This document shows, in pieces, positions 12,567 to 27,729 of a stretch of DNA of 64,000 nucleotides. The stretch is from NCBI RefSeq assembly GCF_017569205.1, contig NZ_CP071870.1, forward strand, positions 930,001 through 994,000, in the 5' to 3' direction. Numbering within the stretch: position 1 is the stretch's first letter; every line of letters starts with the position of its first letter. Origin of the DNA: Propioniciclava sp. MC1595. Its GTDB lineage: Bacteria; Actinomycetota; Actinomycetes; Propionibacteriales; Propionibacteriaceae. Made by a program: the position numbers and the translations under genes. The notes beneath the pieces are model-generated. The model saw only the letters and a list, made by a program, of their open reading frames with translations, searched no databases and was not told the DNA's origin.

Positions 12567-13679
12567 ATGACCGCCCCCGCCAGCGCCGCGCCGCGTCCGG
12601 GTGACCTGGAACCTCGTCCCGGGCACGGCTCCCGGCGCCGGCGGGTGGCGCTGCTCGGGCTGGGTGGGGCGTCCCTGCTCTCGGGTCTCGACGCCGCCCT
12701 CGTCGCGCTGGGCGTCTGGGCCCCCGTGCCGGCCGCGCACCTGCCCGGGGTGCACGGGATGGTGATGGTGCTCGGGTTCATGGGCACCCTGATCTCCCTC
12801 GAGCGGGCCCAGGCCCTGCGCCAACCCTGGGCCTACCTCGCGCCGGCCCTGCTGGGGTCCGGCGGCATCACCCTGGCCGCCGGCCTCCCCGTCCTCGGGC
12901 AGCTGCTGCTCGTCCAGGGCGCGGTCGCGTTCCTCGCGGTCTACCTGGCGCTGTGGCGGCGCGCGCCGCTGCCGCTCGTCGCGGTGCAGGTGCTCTCGAC
13001 CATCCCCGCGCTGGCCGCCGCCGCGCTGTGGTTCCGCGTCGACCTCGCCGCGCTCATCCCGCTGTTGGCCGCCTTCCTCGTGCTCACCATCGCCGCCGAG
13101 CGCGCCGAGCTGGCCCAGCTCGCCCTCGGCCCGCGCGCCGTCCCGATCCTGCTGGTCCTGTCCGCGTGGGTGACCGGGGCCGCGGCGTCCGCCCTCGTCT
13201 GGCCGGACGCCAGCGCCCGGCTCCTCGGCGCCGGGCTCCTGGCCACCGCGGCCTGGCTCGCGCGCGACGACGTCGCGCGTCGGATGGTGCGCACCACGAC
13301 CGGGTTGCGCCGCTACAACGGGGCTGCCCTGCTCGCCGGGTACGCCTGGCTCGCGGTCGCCGGCCTCGTCTGGCTCGTCGGCGGCGCGCCCGGCTCCGAC
13401 GCCGCCTACGACGTGGTGATCCACACCACCTTCCTTGGCTTCGGGGTCTCGATGGTGATGGCCCACGCCCCGATCATCTTCCCGGCCGTGCTGGGGCGCC
13501 CGTTGCCCTACCGGCCCATCCTGTGGCTGCCGCTCGCCCTGCTGCACGGCGGCCTGCTGTTCCGTGTCGTCGGTGACGCCCTGGGCCGGGGTGCCCTGTG
13601 GCAAGGAGGTTCGGTCGTGACCGTGGTGTCGTTGCTCGTCTTCGCGGCCAGCGCCGCCTGGTGCGTGGTGCGGGCATGA
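12567..13679 (+). CDS. NnrS-like polytopic membrane protein
   Basis: This 370-residue protein has about ten to twelve hydrophobic segments. HLPGVHGMVMVLGFMGTLISLERA near the N-terminus and HTTFLGFGVSMVMAHAPIIFPAVLG near the C-terminus carry conserved His and match the NnrS heme-copper membrane family, which protects against nitrosative stress. It follows the DUF2249 gene by 19 nt, and its TGA overlaps the ATG of the nirK fusion. It may be a half or partner of the membrane domain in the next gene. Confidence 0.75.
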   Translation: MTAPASAAPRPGDLEPRPGHGSRRRRVALLGLGGASLLSGLDAALVALGVWAPVPAAHLPGVHGMVMVLGFMGTLISLERAQALRQPWAYLAPALLGSGGITLAAGLPVLGQLLLVQGAVAFLAVYLALWRRAPLPLVAVQVLSTIPALAAAALWFRVDLAALIPLLAAFLVLTIAAERAELAQLALGPRAVPILLVLSAWVTGAAASALVWPDASARLLGAGLLATAAWLARDDVARRMVRTTTGLRRYNGAALLAGYAWLAVAGLVWLVGGAPGSDAAYDVVIHTTFLGFGVSMVMAHAPIIFPAVLGRPLPYRPILWLPLALLHGGLLFRVVGDALGRGALWQGGSVVTVVSLLVFAASAAWCVVRA

Positions 13680-16372
13680 GCGCGAGCACCCCGACCCCCA
13701 CCCGGCCCGGGCCCGCGGCGTCCGCGCGCCCGCGCACCCGCCGCCTGCGCGACCAGGTCGCGCTCGGCTGGCTGGCCGCCGCGGTCGTCATCACCGTGGT
13801 GCACCGCTGGGTGCCCGACGCGACGTGGCTGATGATCCACCTGGTGCTGCTGGGCGCGCTCACGCACTCGGCGCTGGTGTGGAGCGAGCACTTCGCGCAC
13901 ACGTTGCTGCGCACCCTGCCCGACGACGCCGGACGCCGCCGCCAGGACGCGCGCGTGCTGCTGATGGCGGCCGGCGGGCTGGCGGTGTTCGTGGGCGTCC
14001 CGCTGGCGCAGTGGTGGCTCGTCGTGCTCGGGACGGTGCTGGTCTCTGTGGCGGTGCTGTGGCACGCCGTGCACCTGGTCGCCGTGCTGCGCGGGGCGCT
14101 GCCGAGCCGGTTCCGGGTGGTGACGCACACGTACGTGGCGGCGTCCCTCTTCCTCCCGGTCGGCGTCGGCTTCGGCGCCGCCCTCGCCCTCGGCCTGCCT
14201 GAGGAGTGGCACGGCCGCCTGCTCGTCGCCCACCTCGCCTCGAACCTGCTCGGCTGGGTCGGTCTCACCGTCGTCGGCACCCTGGTCACCTTCTGGCCCA
14301 CGATGCTGCGCACCCGCATGGACGACCGCGCCGAGCGCCTCGCCCGGCAGGCCCTGCCGATCCTCGTGGCCGGGCTGGTCGTGCTGGTGGCCGGGGCGCT
14401 GCTGGGCTGGCGCCCGCTCGCGCTGGCCGGGGTCGTCGGCTACGCGCTGGGCCTGCTCTGGTGGGGCCGCGCGCTCGCCCGTCCGCTGCTGGCCAAGGGG
14501 CTGCACGAGTTCGCGCCGGCCTCGGTGCTGGCCGCCCTCGTGTGGGGGCTGGCCGGCATCGTCTGGGTCGCCGTGCTGCTGGTGCTGGCGCCCTCGTGGG
14601 GGTCGCTCGGCGACGTGTTCCCGCTGGTCGGGGGCGTGCTCGCCGTCGGCTTCGCCGCGCAGCTGCTGTCGGGGGCGCTGTCGTACCTCATCCCGTCGGT
14701 GATGGGCGGCGGCCCCCGCGTCGTCCGCGCCGGCCAGGCCTGGTTCGACCGCTGGGGCACCGTGCGCCTGCTGGTCATCAACGCCGGCCTCATGCTCTGG
14801 CTGATGCCGGCGCCCTCGTGGGTGAAGGTCACGGTGTCGACCGCGGTGCTGGCGGGCCTGGTCGCGTTCCTGCCGCTGCTCGTGCTGGGCGCCCGCGCGT
14901 CGGCCCGCGCCCGCCGCGACCCGGACGCCGTGGCGCCCGAGGCCCGCCCCTTCTGGACCGGCAACCAGGTCGTCGCCGCCGTCGCGGCCCTCGCGCTGTC
15001 GGTCACCGCGGGCGTCGCCGTCGATCCGGCGGCCGCCGGGCTGGCGGGGTCGGGGCCGGCCGCACCCGCGGCGTCCGGGGTCGCGCCCACCGGCAACACC
15101 ACGCGCGTCGAGGTGACCGCGCACGGCATGGAGTTCACCCCCAACCGCATCGAGGTGCCCGCCGGCGACCGGCTGGTCGTGGTGCTCACCAACACCGACC
15201 CCGCCATGGCTCACGACCTCGTGCTCAACGGCGCCCGCACGCCGCGCGTCGCGCCCGGCGCCACCGCCGAACTCGACGCCGGGATCATCGGCGCCGACAC
15301 CCAGGGCTGGTGCTCGGTCGCCGGCCACCGGCAGATGGGCATGGTGCTCGACGTCGTGGTGCTCGGGGCTCCCACCGGGGCGGCGGCCGCACCACCGGCG
15401 GACCCGGCCGGCGGCCACGCCGGGCACGGGGCGTCCGGGGCCGGGGCGGGGACGGCGGCCGGGGCAGCGATCCCGCCCACCAACCCCGCAGAGACGCTCG
15501 GCACGTTCGTGGACCCCGTGCTGCCGCCGCTGTCCGACGAGACCGTGCGCAAGGTGACGTTCACCGTCACCGAGGTGCCGCTCGAGGTCGCGCCCGGCCT
15601 GTGGCAGACCCGCTGGACCTTCAACGGCGGCTCCGTCGGCCCCGTGCTGCACGGCCGCGTCGGCGACGTGTTCGAGGTGACGCTGGTCAACGACGGCACG
15701 ATCGGGCACTCGATCGACTTCCACGCCGGGGCCCTCGCCCCCGACCGGCCGATGCGCACCATCGCGCCGGGGGAGTCGCTGGTCTACCGCTTCACCGCCA
15801 CCCGCGCCGGCATCTGGATGTACCACTGCTCGACCATGCCGATGTCGAGCCACATCGCCGCCGGCATGCACGGTGCGGTGGTGATCGAACCCGAGGGGCT
15901 GCCCGCGGTCGACCACAGCTACGTGCTGGTGCAGTCGGAGGTGTTCCTCGCCAACGCGGCCACCTCAGCCGAGCAGGCGCTCGAACTCGACGCCGACAAG
16001 GTCGTCGCCGAGCGCCCCGACCGGGTGGTGTTCAACGGCATCGCCAACCAGTACGACCTGCACCCCTTCACGGTGCGGGTGGGCGAGCGGGTGCGGTTCT
16101 GGGTGCTGGACGCCGGGCCGAACCGGGCGAGCTCGTTCCACATCGTGGGGGGCCAGTTCGACACCTCCTGGACCGAGGGGTCGTACACGCTGCGCCGGGG
16201 CGAGGGAGCCTTCGGGGCCACCGACGGCGGCGCGCAGGTGTTGCCGCTGCTCCCCGCCCAGGGCGGGTTCGTCGAGCTGACCTTCCCCGAGCCGGGCCAC
16301 TACCCGGCCGTGTCGCACGTCATGGTCGACGCCGAGCGCGGCGCGCACGCCGTCGTGGAGGTGTCTCCCTGA
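13676..16372 (+). CDS. nirK: Membrane-anchored copper nitrite reductase with extra N-terminal cupredoxin
   Basis: This 898-residue fusion has three parts. Residues about 25-440 are a polytopic membrane domain with His-rich helices, resembling the preceding NnrS-like protein. Residues about 478-560 are a cupredoxin with type 1 copper ligands (AMAHDL, then C546, His and Met in GWCSVAGHRQMGM). Residues about 590-898 are a two-domain NirK. Its type 1 ligands are H678, C718, H726 and M731; its type 2 ligands are H683, H717 and H822. All seven copper ligands are present, so reduction of nitrite to NO outside the membrane is likely. The cupredoxin may pass electrons to NirK. The start overlaps the preceding stop. 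Confidence 0.85.
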   Translation: MSASTPTPTRPGPAASARPRTRRLRDQVALGWLAAAVVITVVHRWVPDATWLMIHLVLLGALTHSALVWSEHFAHTLLRTLPDDAGRRRQDARVLLMAAGGLAVFVGVPLAQWWLVVLGTVLVSVAVLWHAVHLVAVLRGALPSRFRVVTHTYVAASLFLPVGVGFGAALALGLPEEWHGRLLVAHLASNLLGWVGLTVVGTLVTFWPTMLRTRMDDRAERLARQALPILVAGLVVLVAGALLGWRPLALAGVVGYALGLLWWGRALARPLLAKGLHEFAPASVLAALVWGLAGIVWVAVLLVLAPSWGSLGDVFPLVGGVLAVGFAAQLLSGALSYLIPSVMGGGPRVVRAGQAWFDRWGTVRLLVINAGLMLWLMPAPSWVKVTVSTAVLAGLVAFLPLLVLGARASARARRDPDAVAPEARPFWTGNQVVAAVAALALSVTAGVAVDPAAAGLAGSGPAAPAASGVAPTGNTTRVEVTAHGMEFTPNRIEVPAGDRLVVVLTNTDPAMAHDLVLNGARTPRVAPGATAELDAGIIGADTQGWCSVAGHRQMGMVLDVVVLGAPTGAAAAPPADPAGGHAGHGASGAGAGTAAGAAIPPTNPAETLGTFVDPVLPPLSDETVRKVTFTVTEVPLEVAPGLWQTRWTFNGGSVGPVLHGRVGDVFEVTLVNDGTIGHSIDFHAGALAPDRPMRTIAPGESLVYRFTATRAGIWMYHCSTMPMSSHIAAGMHGAVVIEPEGLPAVDHSYVLVQSEVFLANAATSAEQALELDADKVVAERPDRVVFNGIANQYDLHPFTVRVGERVRFWVLDAGPNRASSFHIVGGQFDTSWTEGSYTLRRGEGAFGATDGGAQVLPLLPAQGGFVELTFPEPGHYPAVSHVMVDAERGAHAVVEVSP

Positions 16373-19394: not shown

Positions 19395-20291
19395 GTGATG
19401 GACGACTACGGACTCGAGCTCCCCCTCGTGCACGCCGGCAAGGTGCGACGCCTCTACGCGCTGCCCGACGCCCCCGACACCGGCGACGGCCGAGCGCCGG
19501 GCCGATTCCTCATGGTGGCCACTGACGCGATCTCGGCGTTCGACCACGTCCTGACCTCCACGATCCCCGACAAGGGCGCGGTCCTGACCCGGCTGAGCCT
19601 GTGGTGGTTCGACCAGCTGGCCGGCATCATCCCCAACCACGTCGTCAGCGCCGACGTGCCCGGGCCCGTGACCGGCCGCGCGATCATCACCGAGCGCCTC
19701 GACATGGTGCCGGTCGAGTGCGTCGTGCGCGGCTACCTGACCGGGTCGGGCTGGGCCGAGTACCAGGCCGGCGGCACCGTGACCGGCATCGAGCTGCCCG
19801 CCGGCCTGCGTGACGGCGACCGCCTGCCCGAGCCGATCTTCACCCCCGCCATCAAGGCCGCCGTGGGCGAGCACGACGAGAACGTGCCGTTCGAGCGCAT
19901 CGTCGAGCTGCACGGGGCCGAGCTGGCCGAGGAGCTCCGCGAGGCGTCCCTGCGGGTCTACGCCCACGCCGAGCAGGTGGCCCGCGAGCGCGGCGTCATC
20001 CTGGCCGACACCAAGTTCGAGTTCGGACGCCGCCCCGACGGCACCCTCGTGCTCGCCGACGAGGTGCTCACGCCCGACTCGTCCCGGTTCTGGGACGCCC
20101 AGCAGTGGGAGCCGGGCGGGGTCCAGCCCAGCTTCGACAAGCAGTTCGTCCGCGACTGGCTGGCCCACGAGTCCGGCTGGGAGCGCTCCTCCGACACCCC
20201 GCCGCCCCCGCTGCCGGCATCCGTCGTCGCCGCCACGCGGGACCGCTACGTCGAGGCCTACACGCGCCTGACGGGGCTGCCGTTCAACTGA
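19395..20291 (+). CDS. purC: SAICAR synthase
   Basis: This 298-residue enzyme joins CAIR and aspartate in purine synthesis. DAISAFDHVLTSTIPDKGAVLTRLS, VVRGYLTGSGWAEY and DEVLTPDSSRFW are conserved substrate and ATP sites. GTG 19395 is chosen because TAGGAT (19382-19387) is exactly 7 nt upstream; the adjacent ATG 19398 is the alternative. It is the intact first gene of the locus whose next three members (purS, purQ, purL) are degenerate. A short GCCGGG/CCCGGC hairpin follows the stop. Confidence 0.95.
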   Translation: MMDDYGLELPLVHAGKVRRLYALPDAPDTGDGRAPGRFLMVATDAISAFDHVLTSTIPDKGAVLTRLSLWWFDQLAGIIPNHVVSADVPGPVTGRAIITERLDMVPVECVVRGYLTGSGWAEYQAGGTVTGIELPAGLRDGDRLPEPIFTPAIKAAVGEHDENVPFERIVELHGAELAEELREASLRVYAHAEQVARERGVILADTKFEFGRRPDGTLVLADEVLTPDSSRFWDAQQWEPGGVQPSFDKQFVRDWLAHESGWERSSDTPPPPLPASVVAATRDRYVEAYTRLTGLPFN

Positions 20292-20350: not shown

Positions 20351-20398
20351 ATGGCGCGAGTGACCGTGGGCGTGACGCCGCCGCTGGGGCAGCGGTGA
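20351..20398 (+). pseudogene. purS: purS remnant, 15-codon leader overlapping purQ
   Basis: A 15-codon frame encodes MARVTVGVTPPLGQR. The first residues match the PurS N-terminus (MARVxVxVxP) and the end may retain a PQGQ-like piece; the remaining 60 or so residues are gone. It sits where purS lies in actinobacteria, between purC and purQ. A TAGGAT box (20339-20344) lies 6 nt before the ATG, so it could be a leaderless mini-ORF. Its TGA overlaps the PurQ ATG, which might couple translation. Confidence 0.6.
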
Positions 20399-21027
20399 TG
20401 CGCATCGGCGTGGTCGGCGTCCAGGGTGCCCCGTACGACGACGTCCTGAACGCCGTCCGCCTGGGTGGAGCGCTCGCCGTGGAGCTGGGCCCCCACCCGC
20501 ACGACCTCTCCGGGGCCGACGCCCTCGTGCTCACCGACACCGTCGACACCCTCTCCGAGGCCATCGTCCACGCCGCCCAGCGTGGCCTGCCGGTGCTCGG
20601 CATCGGGCGCGGCTTCGGCGCCCTGTGCGCCGCGGGGCTGTTGCCCGGATCCCTGCTCGGCAACGACCGGCGTACGTTCGTCTGCCGCGAGCAGCGCGTG
20701 CGGGTCGAGTCCCGCGACACCGTCTGGACCTGCGCGATGGACGAGGGGCAGAACCTCGACCTCGTGCTCACCGGCGGTGGCCTCGGCTTCGGGGTCGAGC
20801 CCGATGTGGCCGCCCGGCTCGAGACCAACCGGCAGGTCGTGCTGCGCTACGTCGACGTCAACCCCGACGGGTCCGTGCACGACATCGCCGGCATCACCAA
20901 CGAGAGCGGCACGGTCGTGGGCCTGCTCGTCCGGCCCGAGTACGCGGTCGAGGCCCTGACCGGGCCGTCCGAGGACGGGCTGCTCTTCCTGGCCAGCGTG
21001 CTCAGCTACCTGCGCGCCGCGGCCTGA
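20398..21027 (+). CDS. purQ: PurQ-like glutaminase homolog lacking the catalytic Cys and His
   Basis: This 209-residue protein aligns along the full PurQ length (MRIGVVGVQGAPYDDVLNAVRL, LPVLGIGRGFGALCAAGLLPG, DIAGITNESGTVVGLLVRPEYAVEALTGPS). PurQ releases ammonia from glutamine for FGAM synthase. The nucleophile elbow GICNGF is GIGRGF here, so the catalytic Cys is Gly 70. The PHPEH triad motif is VRPEY, so His is Arg 179; Glu 181 remains. The KHGEGR loop is lost too. It should have no glutaminase activity. The frame is intact, so it may persist as a scaffold or be decaying. Confidence 0.85.
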   Translation: MRIGVVGVQGAPYDDVLNAVRLGGALAVELGPHPHDLSGADALVLTDTVDTLSEAIVHAAQRGLPVLGIGRGFGALCAAGLLPGSLLGNDRRTFVCREQRVRVESRDTVWTCAMDEGQNLDLVLTGGGLGFGVEPDVAARLETNRQVVLRYVDVNPDGSVHDIAGITNESGTVVGLLVRPEYAVEALTGPSEDGLLFLASVLSYLRAAA

Positions 21028-21067: not shown

Positions 21068-22111
21068 ATGTGCTCGATGAGAACATTCACATTCGACGGT
21101 CACGACAGCCCCGTCGTCGTGCTCGACGAGGCGACCACCGGGCTCAACCCGGCGGCCGCGGCCGAGGTCCTGCGGGCCATCGAGAAGCTGTGCGAGGGCC
21201 GCACGACCCTGGCCGTCACCCACGACGTCCAGGTGGCCCTGACCGCCGACCGGCTGCTGGACGCCGACGAGCTGGGTTCCCTCGTGGGCCGGCCCGCCCG
21301 CGCGGCGTCCGTGCGGGCGAAGCCCGGCGCCCTGCTCGTGCTCGGCCTGGCCGACCCGGCCACCGGACGCCCCACCGGCTGGGCGCGCGTGCTGTGGCCC
21401 GCGGCGTCCGACAAGGCGGCCAAGACCGCGGAGCGCGCCCGTCGTCGGGGGCTGGAGGTCGTCGAGCGGTCCCTCCCCGGCGGGCTGGTGCTCCAGTCCG
21501 GCGGCATCGGCACCGACCCCGGGCTGGCCAACCCCCTGCGCGCGGCCCGTCCGAAGCGCCTGCGCGAGCTGGTCGACCGACCCGAGGCCGTGCTGCGGTA
21601 CAACCCCCTGCGCCGGGTGCTGGTGCGCGACCGCGACGTGGTGGTCCGGGTGGGCGCGCACCCCGACCCGCTTCGCGAACGCCTGCTGGGGCGTCTCGCC
21701 GCGCTGGGCGTGCCGGTGCCCGACGTACTCGACGCCGGCGGGCAGGAGCACGTGTCGTCGCGTCGGTTCTTCGGCGACACCGACCTGGCCAGAACCCCGA
21801 GTGATGAGGGCGTGCGCTGGGCGGGGGCTGCCCTCGCGCGGCTCCACGCCACGACGGGCGACGTCCTGGGTGACGCCGACCTGGCCGCGGACCTGGGGCG
21901 GCGCACGCCCCCCGCGTGCGTGCCCACCACCGTGCTGCGCGACCTCGACCCGGCGCTCGCCGACCGGCTGGACGCCCTGGCCGCCCGCGTCGCCGACCGC
22001 GGGCTCGACGGCCCGCGCGTCCTCCTGCACGGTGACGCCTCGGCGGCCCAGGTGCTGGTGGACTCGGGGTGGCTCGACGCCTGGGTGGGGGAGACCCTCG
22101 GCGCCGCGTGA
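21068..22111 (+). CDS. Chimeric remnant: ABC ATPase C-terminal piece fused to an APH/choline-kinase-like domain
   Basis: This protein has 347 residues. Residues about 15-65 read VVVLDEATTGLNPAAAAEVLRAI then LAVTHDVQVALTADRLL, the Walker B, D-loop and H-loop of an ABC ATPase. Walker A and the signature are missing. Residues about 170-347 resemble an aminoglycoside phosphotransferase fold (AGAALARLHATTG, LLHGDASAAQVLV), but the metal-binding Asn of HGDxxxxN is Gln and the chain ends soon after, without the DFG-type Asp. Neither half looks active. It sits between the degenerate purQ and purL, so it may share their decay. Full-length relatives were not identified. Confidence 0.6.
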   Translation: MCSMRTFTFDGHDSPVVVLDEATTGLNPAAAAEVLRAIEKLCEGRTTLAVTHDVQVALTADRLLDADELGSLVGRPARAASVRAKPGALLVLGLADPATGRPTGWARVLWPAASDKAAKTAERARRRGLEVVERSLPGGLVLQSGGIGTDPGLANPLRAARPKRLRELVDRPEAVLRYNPLRRVLVRDRDVVVRVGAHPDPLRERLLGRLAALGVPVPDVLDAGGQEHVSSRRFFGDTDLARTPSDEGVRWAGAALARLHATTGDVLGDADLAADLGRRTPPACVPTTVLRDLDPALADRLDALAARVADRGLDGPRVLLHGDASAAQVLVDSGWLDAWVGETLGAA

Positions 22112-23041: not shown

Positions 23042-23120
23042 GGGAACCCCCCATCGACAACGGGCGGCGTCGTGGTGACGCCGGTGCCCCCACCCTAGCG
23101 CGCAGGGTAGATTGGCGCCC

Positions 23121-24635
23121 GTGGCCGACACCGATGAGAACGCACCCGCCGGGGGTGGGCGGAGCGCCGTGGTGGACGTCGGTGACGGGCTCGCCGTCGC
23201 CTTCGCGATCGCCGCGCACGACCCCGTAGCCGCACCGGGCGCGGACACCGCGGTGGCCACCGTCGCCGCCGACCTGCGCGCGGCCGGTGTCGAACCGCTG
23301 GCCGTCCTCGACGCCGTCCACGTCGGCCCGTGGGACGCCGACGCCACCGTCGACCTCCTCCCGCGCCTCGTCGCCGGGCTGGCCGCCGACGCGCGCCGCC
23401 TCGACTTGCCGGGCCTGGGCGGCCTGCTCGTGGCCGACGAGGTCTACGCCGACGCCCCGCTGGCCCACGCGGTCGCGGTCGGTGTCGTGGACCCCGAGGC
23501 GACTACCACCCCGCCCGCCGCGCCTCCGGCAGCAGGCGCGATGCCCCCGCCCGCCCGTCCGGGCTGGATCGACCGGGTGAACGCCGACCGCGCCGAGGAC
23601 CTGCCGCGCGCGACCACGGGCGACGGGCTGGGCGAGCAGGTGCTGCGCCTGGCCGGCTCGCCCGCGCTGGCCGACCGGGCCTGGGCCTCCGAGCAGTACG
23701 ACCGGTACGTCCGCGGCGACACGGTGCTGTCCGCCCCCGAGGGCGTCGGCCTGGTGCGCCTGGACGCCGGGACGGGGCGCGGTGCCGCGCTCGCCGTGAC
23801 CGGCAACCCCCGCTTCGCCCTGCTCAACCCGTACCTGGGTGCCCAGCTCGCCCTCGCCGAGGGCGTGCGCCGGGTGGCCGCCGCCGGGGCCGAGCCCCGG
23901 GGCGCGCTCGCCTGCCTCGACGCCGGCCACGCGGACGCCCCGGCCGCGGCCTGGCAGCGCGACGAGATGCGCCTCGGGCTGGTCGACGCCGCCGACCGCC
24001 TGGGCCTCACCCTGCCGGCCGCGTGCGGCCGCCTGCACGACCGCGCGGGGGGCGCCGCCCTGCACCCCACGCCGGTGGTCGCCACGCTCGGCACCCTCGA
24101 CGACGTCGCCACCCGGACGCCCGGGGGCTTCGCGCACCCCGGCGACGCCGTGGTGCTGCTCGGCCGCACCGGGGCGGAGCTGTCCGGGTCGGCGTGGGCC
24201 GGCGCCGTGCACGGGCACCTGGGCGGCATGCCCCCGTTCCCCGACCCGGCCGCCGAGGCCGCCCTCGCGGGCGTCCTGGTCGACGCGGCCCGTGCGGGCA
24301 TCCTCAGCTCGGCCCGCGCCCTGGCCGCCGGCGGGCTCGCGCAGACGCTGGTCGAGGCCGCCCTGCGCCACGACCTCGGGGTTTCGCTGACCCTGCCCGA
24401 GGGCGACCCCACGGTGACGCTGTTCGCCGAGTCCCCGGCGCGGGCGCTCGTGTCGGTCTCGGGGCAGCACTACGACGCGCTGCGCCGCTCCTGCGCCGCG
24501 GCCGGCGTGCCCGTCACGCGCCTGGGTGAGGTGCTCGAGCAGCCCGCCCTCGAGGTGCTCGGCCAGTTCACCCTCGGCCTGGCCGACCTCCGCGCCGCCT
24601 GGGGCACGCCGCTGCGCGCCGCGATGGAGGGCTGA
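23121..24635 (+). CDS. purL: Degenerate, shortened FGAM synthase PurL homolog
   Basis: It is 504 residues against about 750 for the usual small PurL. The N-terminal part begins directly at VVDVGDGLAVAFAIAAHDPV, where PurL has the ATP-binding ESHNHPS stretch; the upstream WSEHCSYK catalytic segment and much of the first AIRS-C domain are missing. The second half is recognisable (AVTGNPRFALLNPYLGAQLALAEG, LHPTPVVATLGTLDDV), but TTDGNPR, GNVSLYNE and SEGGLA are altered. FGAM synthesis by this protein is very unlikely. A TAGATT box 7 nt before GTG 23121 suggests it is transcribed without a leader. It lies at the normal purL position ahead of purF. Confidence 0.8.
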   Translation: MADTDENAPAGGGRSAVVDVGDGLAVAFAIAAHDPVAAPGADTAVATVAADLRAAGVEPLAVLDAVHVGPWDADATVDLLPRLVAGLAADARRLDLPGLGGLLVADEVYADAPLAHAVAVGVVDPEATTTPPAAPPAAGAMPPPARPGWIDRVNADRAEDLPRATTGDGLGEQVLRLAGSPALADRAWASEQYDRYVRGDTVLSAPEGVGLVRLDAGTGRGAALAVTGNPRFALLNPYLGAQLALAEGVRRVAAAGAEPRGALACLDAGHADAPAAAWQRDEMRLGLVDAADRLGLTLPAACGRLHDRAGGAALHPTPVVATLGTLDDVATRTPGGFAHPGDAVVLLGRTGAELSGSAWAGAVHGHLGGMPPFPDPAAEAALAGVLVDAARAGILSSARALAAGGLAQTLVEAALRHDLGVSLTLPEGDPTVTLFAESPARALVSVSGQHYDALRRSCAAAGVPVTRLGEVLEQPALEVLGQFTLGLADLRAAWGTPLRAAMEG

Positions 24636-25153: not shown

Positions 25154-25205
25154 CGTCGTGGGCATCGGGGTCCGCGGGGGTCGGGGCGGCACTAGACTCA
25201 CTCCA

Positions 25206-26675
25206 GTGACGCGCGCCCTGCACCTGCTCGACCCGGTCGGCGACCCCAAGCCCAACGAGGAGTGCGGCGTCTTCGGCGTCTGGGCCCCCGGCGAAGAGGT
25301 CGCCAAGCTCACCTACTTCGGCCTGTTCGCGCTGCAGCACCGCGGCCAGGAGTCGGCCGGCATCTCGGTCAGCAACGGCGAACGCATCATGGTCTTCAAG
25401 GACATGGGCCTGGTCTCCCAGGTCTTCGACGAGCCCACGCTGAACTCCCTGCTCGGCCACCTGGCGATCGGGCACACGCGCTACTCGACCACCGGGGCGT
25501 CCGTCTGGAAGAACGCCCAGCCGACCTACCGCGCCACGCCCAACGGCGGGCTGGCGCTGGCGCACAACGGCAACCTGACCAATACCCCCGAGCTGGAGGC
25601 CTGGCTGCGCGAGCGCGACGCGCACGCCAAGGTCGCCAGCAAGGAATCGATGGACTCCACGAACGACACGTGGCTGGTCACGTCGCTGCTGGCGACCTTC
25701 ACCGACTCGACGTGGGACGCCGCGCTCTCCGTCCTGCCCCGCCTGCAGGGCGCGTTCTGCTTCACGTTCATGGACGACAACGCCCTGTATGCCGCCCGCG
25801 ACCCGCAGGGCGTGCGGCCCTTGGTGCTCGGACGCCTCGAGCGCGGCTGGGTCGTCGCCTCCGAGACCGCGGCGCTGGACATCGTGGGCGCGACCTTCAT
25901 CCGCGAGGTGGAGCCCGGCGAGCTGATCTGCGTCGACTCCGGCGGCCTCCGCTCGGCGCGCTTCGCCGAGGCCAACCCCAAGGGCTGCCTGTTCGAGTAC
26001 GTGTACCTGGCCCGCCCCGACACCGTGATCGCCGACCGCCGCGTGCACACCACCCGTGTCGAGATCGGCCGCACGCTGGCGCTGGAGTCCCCGGTGGACG
26101 CCGACCTCGTCATCCCGACGCCCGAGTCGGGCATCCCGAGCGCGGTCGGCTACGCCGAGGCCTCGGGCATCCCGTACGGGCTGGGCCTGGTCAAGAACAG
26201 CTACGTGGGCCGCACGTTCATCCAGCCGTCGCAGACGCTGCGCCAGCTGGGCATCCGGCTCAAGCTGAACCCGATCCGCGACGTCATCGAGGGCAAGCGC
26301 CTCATCGTCGTCGACGACTCGATCGTGCGCGGCAACACCCAGCGCGCGTTGGTGAAGATGCTGCGCGAGGCGGGCGCCGCCGAGGTGCATGTCCGGATCG
26401 CCTCCCCGCCCGTGGAGTGGCCCTGCTTCTACGGCATCGACTTCGCCACGCGCGCCGAGCTCATCGCGCCCGGCATGAACGTCGACGAGATCTGCCGTTC
26501 CATCGGCGCCGACTCCCTGGCCTACATCTCGCTGGAGGGGCTGGTCGCCTCCACCGGGCTGCCGAAGAAGCGGTTGTGCCGGGCGTGCTTCGACGGCCAC
26601 TACCCGATCCCCGTGCCGCCCCGCGCGGCGGAGCAGATGCGCCTGATCGCGCAGGAAGGTGACGACGATGACTGA
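25206..26675 (+). CDS. purF: Amidophosphoribosyltransferase
   Basis: This 489-residue enzyme makes phosphoribosylamine from PRPP and glutamine, the first step of purine synthesis. After a short propeptide the N-terminal nucleophile is C20 (NEECGVFGVWAPG). The PRPP loop is IVVDDSIVRGNTQ. Late cysteines (EWPCFYGI, KRLCRACFDG) fit the Fe-S type found in B. subtilis. GTG 25206 lies 7 nt after TAGACT, a leaderless start. It overlaps purM by 8 nt. It appears intact, unlike the upstream purS, purQ and purL. Confidence 0.96.
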   Translation: MTRALHLLDPVGDPKPNEECGVFGVWAPGEEVAKLTYFGLFALQHRGQESAGISVSNGERIMVFKDMGLVSQVFDEPTLNSLLGHLAIGHTRYSTTGASVWKNAQPTYRATPNGGLALAHNGNLTNTPELEAWLRERDAHAKVASKESMDSTNDTWLVTSLLATFTDSTWDAALSVLPRLQGAFCFTFMDDNALYAARDPQGVRPLVLGRLERGWVVASETAALDIVGATFIREVEPGELICVDSGGLRSARFAEANPKGCLFEYVYLARPDTVIADRRVHTTRVEIGRTLALESPVDADLVIPTPESGIPSAVGYAEASGIPYGLGLVKNSYVGRTFIQPSQTLRQLGIRLKLNPIRDVIEGKRLIVVDDSIVRGNTQRALVKMLREAGAAEVHVRIASPPVEWPCFYGIDFATRAELIAPGMNVDEICRSIGADSLAYISLEGLVASTGLPKKRLCRACFDGHYPIPVPPRAAEQMRLIAQEGDDDD

Positions 26676-27729
26676 GGCCCGGAGCGCCTACGCCGCCGCC
26701 GGTGTCGACATCGAGGCCGGTGACCGCGCCGTCGAGCTGATGAAGGCCCACGTCGCGCGCACCCACCGCCCCGAGGTGCTGGGCGGGCTGGGCGGCTTCG
26801 CCGGGTTCTTCGACGCGTCGGCGTTCAAGGCCTACGACCACCCCGTGCTGGCCACCTCCACCGACGGCGTCGGCACGAAGGTCGCCATCGCGCAGGCCCT
26901 CGACAAGCACGACACCATCGGCTTCGACCTGATCGGCATGCTCGTCGACGACCTCGTCGTCGTGGGCGCCGAGCCGCTGTTCGTCACCGACTACATCGCC
27001 TGCGGCAAGGTGGTCCCCGAGCGGATCGCCGACATCGTCAAGGGCATCGCCGCCGCCTGCGAGGTCGCCGGCGCCGCGCTGCTGGGCGGTGAGACCGCCG
27101 AGCACCCCGGCCTGCTGGAGGCCGACGAGTACGACATCGCCGGCGCCACCACGGGCGTCGTGGAGCGCTCGAAGATCCTCGGGCCGGACCGCGTCCGGGC
27201 CGGCGACGTGGTCGTCGCGCTGGCGTCCTCGGGCCTGCACTCCAACGGCTACTCGCTGGTGCGCCACGTGCTGCTCAACCAGGCCGGCTGGGCGCTGGAC
27301 CGCGACGTCCCCGAACTCGGCACAACGCTGGGGGAGACCCTGCTCACGCCGACGCAGGTCTACGCGCGCGACATCCTCGCGCTCGTCGACGCCGCCGAGG
27401 TGCACGCGATCAGCCACGTCACCGGCGGCGGCCTGGCCAACAACCTGGCCCGGGTGCTGCCCGCCGGCGTCGCCGCGACCCTGCGTCGCGACAGCTGGAC
27501 GCCGCCCGCGATCTTCTCCCTGGTGCAGCAGGTCGGCAAGGTGAGCCAGCCCGACATCGAGGCGACCCTCAACATGGGCGTCGGCATGGCGTTGGTGGCC
27601 CCCGCCGAGTCCGTCGACCAGCTGGTGCGCACGGCGTCCGAGCGTGGGCTGGAGGCCTGGGTGCTCGGGGAGACGCAGGCCGTCGAGGGCCCGGCACGGG
27701 TCGAGATGGCGGGGGAGCACGCGGGCTGA
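26668..27729 (+). CDS. purM: AIR synthase (phosphoribosylformylglycinamidine cyclo-ligase)
   Basis: This 353-residue enzyme closes the imidazole ring of FGAM to AIR with ATP. STDGVGTKVAIAQALDKHDTIG, VDDLVVVGAEPLFVTDYIACGK, GGETAEHPG and HVTGGGLANNLARVLP cover the expected ATP and substrate sites at normal length. It needs FGAM as substrate, so its intact state shows that the cell still makes FGAM in spite of the broken purSQL genes. It overlaps purF and is followed by a hairpin. Confidence 0.95.
   Translation: MTEARSAYAAAGVDIEAGDRAVELMKAHVARTHRPEVLGGLGGFAGFFDASAFKAYDHPVLATSTDGVGTKVAIAQALDKHDTIGFDLIGMLVDDLVVVGAEPLFVTDYIACGKVVPERIADIVKGIAAACEVAGAALLGGETAEHPGLLEADEYDIAGATTGVVERSKILGPDRVRAGDVVVALASSGLHSNGYSLVRHVLLNQAGWALDRDVPELGTTLGETLLTPTQVYARDILALVDAAEVHAISHVTGGGLANNLARVLPAGVAATLRRDSWTPPAIFSLVQQVGKVSQPDIEATLNMGVGMALVAPAESVDQLVRTASERGLEAWVLGETQAVEGPARVEMAGEHAG

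Follow-up and report, generated by a model that had tools for sequence, protein, structure and literature searches.

The window, a 64,000-nucleotide stretch of the Propioniciclava sp. MC1595 genome (NZ_CP071870.1, positions 930,001 to 994,000), carries at 20398-21027 on the plus strand a gene for a 209-residue PurQ homolog that lacks the catalytic Cys of a glutaminase (translation, profile match, alignment, and AlphaFold2 with Foldseek). From comparison with related genomes, we consider it probable that this protein is a dead subunit of the FGAM synthetase, displaced by a single-chain PurL and kept by selection as a non-catalytic pseudoenzyme.

A PurQ homolog without its glutaminase site

The original prediction held that the nucleophile elbow GICNGF and the triad motif PHPEH of this gene are altered, with the rest of the fold and the reading frame retained. 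Translation of 20398-21027 (+) placed LGIGRGF at residues 67-73, and alignment to intact relatives, which have GICNGF and PHPEH at the corresponding sites, confirmed that Gly70 (codon GGG, 20605-20607) replaces the catalytic Cys in the former elbow, now GIGRGF (20599-20616, +). The second change was borne out by translation as well, with VRPEY at residues 178-182 (20929-20943, +) and Arg179 in place of the His. As to the remainder of the protein, the prediction stood for the open frame of 209 residues and for a PurQ-like predicted fold, and failed for the active-site loop: compared with 29 relatives, the window protein lacks the segment GGFSYGDYLRCGAIA of 14 alignment columns (intact loop GGFSYGDYLR), at a site placed approximately at 20536-20550 (+) by the alignments, in which 30 of the 49 matches of the PurQ search were taken in.

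To the profile NCBIfam PRK03619 the window protein scored 138.5 bits (E 2e-40, alignment starting at residue 52), which is under the 212-bit cut-off, and it was above the cut-off of Pfam GATase_5. AlphaFold2 gave a fair model (pLDDT 81.9, pTM 0.84, from a 14-sequence alignment), whose top Foldseek match in the PDB was Thermotoga maritima PurQ (3d54_D, TM 0.76), so that by prediction the fold stands and the glutaminase site is gone; that the protein itself folds is likewise suggested by the model. There are 105 alignment columns at which at least 26 of 27 intact PurQs share one residue; the window protein retains that residue in 58 of them and has lost it in 47, and by eye the losses cluster at the active-site motifs. 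These columns and the PurQ tree come from a 38-row set from which the short rows G025 and G028 and the partial G003 were left out.

A catalytic Cys elsewhere in the fold was looked for and not found. The window protein has three Cys residues (77, 96 and 112), of which Cys77 and Cys96 fall on sites conserved across at least 26 of the 27 intact PurQs and Cys112 is also found in intact PurQs such as that of G005, and a relocated nucleophile is thereby ruled out. A frameshift, an assembly fault or a one-off sequencing error was ruled out as the cause because other genomes agree: three further genomes of the genus carry a Cys-less PurQ in which the same loop is shorter by 7-15 columns.

The protein thus belongs to the PurQ family by descent, by its sequence score (though below the cut-off) and its fold match, and falls outside the definition of a working PurQ. 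It shares family, predicted fold and gene neighborhood (purC, purF and purM) with the PurQ of the three-part FGAM synthetase (PurS-PurQ-PurL; T. maritima 3D54), but where a working glutaminase has Cys in a GxCxG elbow, His in HPE and the loop GGFSYGD, the relic has GIGRGF, VRPEY and a deletion, and of the partner subunits PurS is missing from the genome and the small PurL is itself a relic. It does not resemble a pseudogene in the usual sense of a disrupted frame or a neutral codon pattern, the frame being open and GC3 being 0.962.

Upstream of the PurQ relic lies purC, for SAICAR synthetase (19398-20291, +; above the profile cut-off, start codon by eye), and downstream lie purF (25158-26675, +; profile match, start possibly further in) and purM (26659-27729, +; profile match). 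The spacing between purC and the relic is about 106 bases in the window and 134 in G006, and a further ORF, whose product looks like a secreted repeat protein, occurs between purC and the PurQ relic in G009 (L123) and upstream of the relic in G012 (L124). In G006, purC (L121, 1394-2285) matches in two reading frames, either a frameshift or a sequence error in the bin, and other G006 genes are therefore treated with caution. Between the PurQ relic and the relic of PurL is an ORF (21068-22111, +) that stands apart from the purine relics and joins an ABC-ATPase-like N-terminal stretch (VVVLDEATTGLNP..., by eye) to an APH phosphotransferase domain. In G006 and G009 the two parts gave separate matches, so there may have been a loss of sequence in the window directly behind the PurQ relic. 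Further upstream, a long ORF at 13598-16372 contains, by eye, a membrane domain followed by copper-oxidase/nitrite-reductase-like domains.

Single-chain PurL and the remains of the three-part enzyme

The original prediction missed, besides the loop deletion, two genes that bear on the fate of PurQ: an intact single-chain PurL elsewhere in the genome and the PurL relic at 23112-24635. The window genome (G000; a single contig of 3.43 Mb, 100% complete) encodes the large single-chain PurL at G000:C1:2693600-2697478, with 1747.8 bits against a cut-off of 1123. Its motifs GICNGC and MPHPER are intact, which suggests that it took over the FGAM step. PurS was not found in this genome, where the search returned a stray match of 15.3 bits (E 0.06). 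With a single-chain PurL present, PurS missing and the small PurL truncated, the glutaminase subunit appears to have been displaced. The large and the three-part forms of FGAM synthetase are established alternatives to each other, and PMC3261824 describes how an archaeon lacking purS and purQ received a large PurL by transfer.

The PurL relic (23112-24635, +; profile searches and alignment) comprises 507 residues from a TTG whose assignment as the start is uncertain. It lacks the N-terminal WSEHCSYKSSK region and the entire subdomain between residues ~126 and ~146 of intact PurL, and keeps the AIRS and AIRS_C parts; structure prediction gave no usable model (pLDDT 35.3). The relics of the window, G006, G009 and G121, the last of which belongs to another genus, measure 513-523 residues from stop to stop, and all four are missing the same two parts in frame, with a short linker bridging the subdomain gap. 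The PurL of G012 (730 residues) has a smaller deletion and is the only relic over the cut-off in a large-PurL genome of the genus (617 bits). No frameshifts or stops were found in the five PurL relics covered in full; those of G001 and G007 end at contig edges. A PurF+PurM tree places G012 inside the relic clade with moderate support (86-89/92-94), and if that placement holds, in-frame removal of the subdomain happened more than once. Such parallel in-frame trimming is the best hint that the remnant does something.

Among 13 genomes of the genus, including G009 (Propioniciclava sinopodophylli KCTC 33808), the large PurL was present in 7 (6 over the cut-off; that of G007 ends at a contig edge) and PurS in exactly the remaining 6, with no overlap. 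Each of the 6 PurS genomes has a PurL over the cut-off and a PurQ with GICNGF and MPHPEH. A PurQ homolog was found in 4 of the 7 large-PurL genomes, and all four are in frame and Cys-less, with the elbows GIGRGF (window), GIGPGF (G012), GIDGGF (G006) and GVGEGF (G009); PHPEH is still present in that of G012. No PurQ match was obtained in G008 (100% complete), G001 (7% contaminated) or G007 (72% complete). PurQ is therefore dispensable, being missing in G008 and unmatched in the other two.

On the PurF+PurM tree, which covers 12 of the 13 genomes (G010 was left out), the window genome groups with G012, G009, G006 and G007 in a single clade (100/97); G001 is paired with G004, a PurS-PurQ-PurL genome, and G008 stands apart. 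The distribution of the large PurL on this tree needs at least two changes within the genus, which disfavors a single origin there. Since the genus relics share the changed Cys (4 of 4) and a derived Gly80 (4 of 4), their sequences suggest that PurQ was inactivated before the species split.

Loss of the catalytic Cys across Propionibacteriaceae

In the family as a whole, a large PurL was found at E<=1e-100 in 35 of 198 genomes, representing 7 of 29 genera. PurQs from 8 further large-PurL genomes outside the genus comprised 6 Cys-less proteins, all with Gly (G124, G125, G128 and G129 of g7, G163 of g33, and G121 of g14), and 2 intact ones, so that with those of the genus 10 of 12 separate PurQs from large-PurL genomes are Cys-less. 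The remaining large-PurL genomes gave weak PurQ matches or none, and the large PurL's own domain produces a comparably weak match (3.7e-22 for the window's own). The two intact PurQs, from G088 and G097 (g29), have PurS directly upstream, and the idea that every PurQ beside a large PurL is Cys-less was rejected on their account. G088 is a draft bin of 400 contigs with 5% contamination and G097 one of 200 contigs with 3%, and in each the large PurL is broken up over two contigs; they may be mixed bins or species truly holding both systems, and true coexistence would break a strict displacement rule.

One more Cys-less PurQ, from G222 (record JARKOU010000024), was counted outside the large-PurL set, giving a total of 11 (10 with Gly, 1 with Asp). 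None of the 11 has a frameshift or stop. From among the 105 invariant positions, all 11 have lost Cys84, His94, Tyr54 and Ile60 (G005 numbering). The PurQ tree has long branches and allows 1-3 changes for the loss of Cys, and 48% of bootstrap trees unite all Cys-less rows.

Gene fusions accompany some of these PurQs. In g7 and g33, purC continues in frame into a PurS domain; in all four g7 genomes covered the PurC-PurS fusion has a long His/Asp-rich tail (L117 6604-8004; L170-L173), and the fusion ORF extends a few bases into the start of the Cys-less PurQ. In G222, purC continues in frame into the Cys-less PurQ, with an internal GTG start possible. At L110 (6290-7891), PurC and a Cys-less PurQ share one open frame, joined by a linker rich in Ala and Pro and similar to the one between PurC and PurS in G004. 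Fusion to PurC was dropped as a marker of dead lineages, as PurC and PurS also form one open frame in the intact G004.

In related enzymes, a lost Cys costs the use of glutamine and nothing else, and a Cys-less PurQ might accordingly still work with PurS and a small PurL as an FGAM synthetase supplied with ammonia. The survival of PurS fused to PurC in g7 and g33, where PurQ also keeps HPE, speaks for such an enzyme. However, no PurL was found in the g7 stretches covered around PurQ, and the explanation should not hold for the window genome, which has no PurS and whose PurL relic lacks its catalytic parts; we regard it as very improbable.

A change in the glutaminase site was also seen in a single-chain PurL, that of G013 (L178), which reads GINNGA and MVHPDR with Asn for Cys. 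The bin is 90% complete and its best PurQ match is 6e-11; this PurL is possibly an ammonia-dependent FGAM synthetase, or the bin is incomplete. G070 (100% complete) has a best PurQ match of 1e-6 and no large PurL at E<=1e-100.

Selection, decay and the fate of the relics

The dN/dS comparison across related genomes (pairwise GY94 estimates) gave its clearest result in g7, where omega for the Cys-less PurQ was 0.015-0.036 in 6 of 6 pairs (dS 1.7-3.1). The adjoining PurC had 0.023-0.041 (3 pairs tested) and the intact PurQ in the window's genus 0.021-0.033 (3 pairs). In the PurQ tree, g7 has a stem of 1.24 changes per site, against 0.045-0.17 for its tips, consistent with a burst of change followed by constraint. 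The window-G012 pair had an omega of 0.076 (2dlnL 82 versus omega=1), a lower bound given the saturated dS of 4.3, and the other five Propioniciclava-group pairs had values of 0.000-0.029 at a dS too saturated to inform. All 12 Cys-less PurQ pairs tested rejected omega=1. Purifying selection after catalytic loss is thus evident for g7 and weaker for the window copy. For the C-terminal part of the PurL relic, omega was 0.115 (window-G012), 0.15 (window-G009) and 0.082 (window-G006), against 0.025-0.049 in two intact PurL pairs; the G012-G009 pair was saturated.

The window PurQ is clearly relaxed. Between the window and G012, its dN of 0.327 is about 0.3 of the PurF dS (1.03) and about 16-fold the PurF dN (0.020), compared with 2.2- and 2.4-fold in two intact PurQ pairs. 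A less likely explanation than retention, though one with a real claim, is that PurQ and PurL have been eroding slowly under relaxed selection since the large PurL arrived, their frames open by luck at 73% GC, where stops are rare. The 16-fold excess fits such decay, as do the missing PurQ of G008, the graded erosion of the invariant positions (68 of 105 kept in G012, 58 in the window) and the lower GC3 of some Cys-less PurQs (G121 0.85, G163 0.886, G006 0.90 with purF at 0.95, and G222 0.91); in an indel-free neutral simulation the frame stayed open in about half of lineages. There is also a precedent in Memar_1841 of Methanoculleus marisnigri, a PurQ-like gene without the triad in a genome that also encodes another FGAM synthetase; it has purS and purC as neighbors, lacks about 150 residues and lies beside a full-length PurQ, and its authors read it as gene decay (PMC3261824). 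Compared with Memar_1841 as described there, the relic studied here is nearly full length, occurs in several genera and is constrained in g7. Slow decay is further opposed by the rejection of omega=1 in 12 of 12 pairs, by the absence of frameshifts and stops from the 11 Cys-less PurQs and the five fully covered PurL relics, and by the derived residues common to the genus, which suggest an early inactivation. The codon usage argues in the same direction: GC3 is 0.962 in the window PurQ, 0.963 in the PurL relic and 0.975 in purF, and simulated neutral drift since the G012 split (under a plain HKY model of constant composition in which indels are not selected) predicted a GC3 of 0.86 +/- 0.024 and a window-G012 identity of 0.24 +/- 0.03, versus 0.558 observed. 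Neutral decay over the whole time since that split is rejected by this simulation.

Another possibility is that PurQ kept working through most of the time after the split and was inactivated lately and separately in each species. To reproduce the observed identity, each lineage would need about 0.13-0.16 neutral changes per site, with a chance of 0.44-0.69 of meeting no stop. However, a GC3 of at least 0.962 was reached in only about 1-17% of genes simulated in this way, and 1.6-7 frameshifting indels per gene would be expected (at assumed indel ratios of 0.03-0.1), of which none was seen. The genus relics moreover have the Cys loss, the loop loss and Gly80 in common, and all five members of the clade carry the large PurL. 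We therefore hold this history to be improbable, and a recent separate decay of the window copy alone to be unlikely. The original prediction had offered either a pseudoenzyme under some selection or recent decay; that pair of options is supported, and the comparison favors selection, on the in-frame Cys-less PurQs of relatives, the rejection of omega=1 and the retained codon bias of the window gene.

For a displaced PurQ retained by selection, the order of events might be as follows. An ancestor would have acquired the single-chain PurL, which took over the FGAM step; PurS would then have been lost, the small PurL would have been stripped of its N-terminal catalytic region and of a subdomain, and Cys, His and the active-site loop would have gone from PurQ. 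The losses in all three subunits are apparent from the sequences. Judging from dN/dS, codon bias and open frames, both dead proteins are probably still translated and under purifying selection. They could persist as non-catalytic subunits, with PurQ as a scaffold or ligand-binding partner that plausibly still binds the PurL relic or PurC and tunes the purine pathway, a role that we offer as a guess. Equally tentative is a wider reading for Propionibacteriaceae with a single-chain PurL, in which the old PurQ might repeatedly have become a non-catalytic regulator or scaffold of purine synthesis, accompanied by PurL in some lineages and by PurC-fused PurS in others. The parallel loss of Cys and the parallel in-frame removal of the PurL subdomain in two genera would belong to the same doubtful scheme.

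Carbamoyl-phosphate synthetase I offers a likeness, having a glutaminase-like domain that lost its Cys and was kept, and differs in that the domain is fused to a live synthetase using ammonia. The viral FGARAT homologs of gammaherpesviruses (ORF75 family) are catalytically dead. They are FGAM-synthetase homologs for which PMC5811070 gives roles outside purine synthesis; they are of the large-PurL type and viral, and we claim no relation to the window relic. No bacterial PurQ that has lost its Cys and stayed under selection turned up in searches of open-licence papers.

These relics also set a trap for annotation. The Cys-less PurQs of G125 (266 bits) and G163 (260 bits) exceed the NCBI 'equivalog' cut-off of 212 bits, and the damaged PurL of G012 is above its profile cut-offs; pipelines based on cut-offs would therefore label these proteins as functional. 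That a glutaminase subunit has lasted longer than its reaction in several related genera amounts to a natural experiment in the origin of pseudoenzymes, in which gene displacement would come first, catalytic residues would be lost next, and constraint would afterwards return in g7. Because close relatives carry intact and dead versions, the case of PurQ is directly testable.
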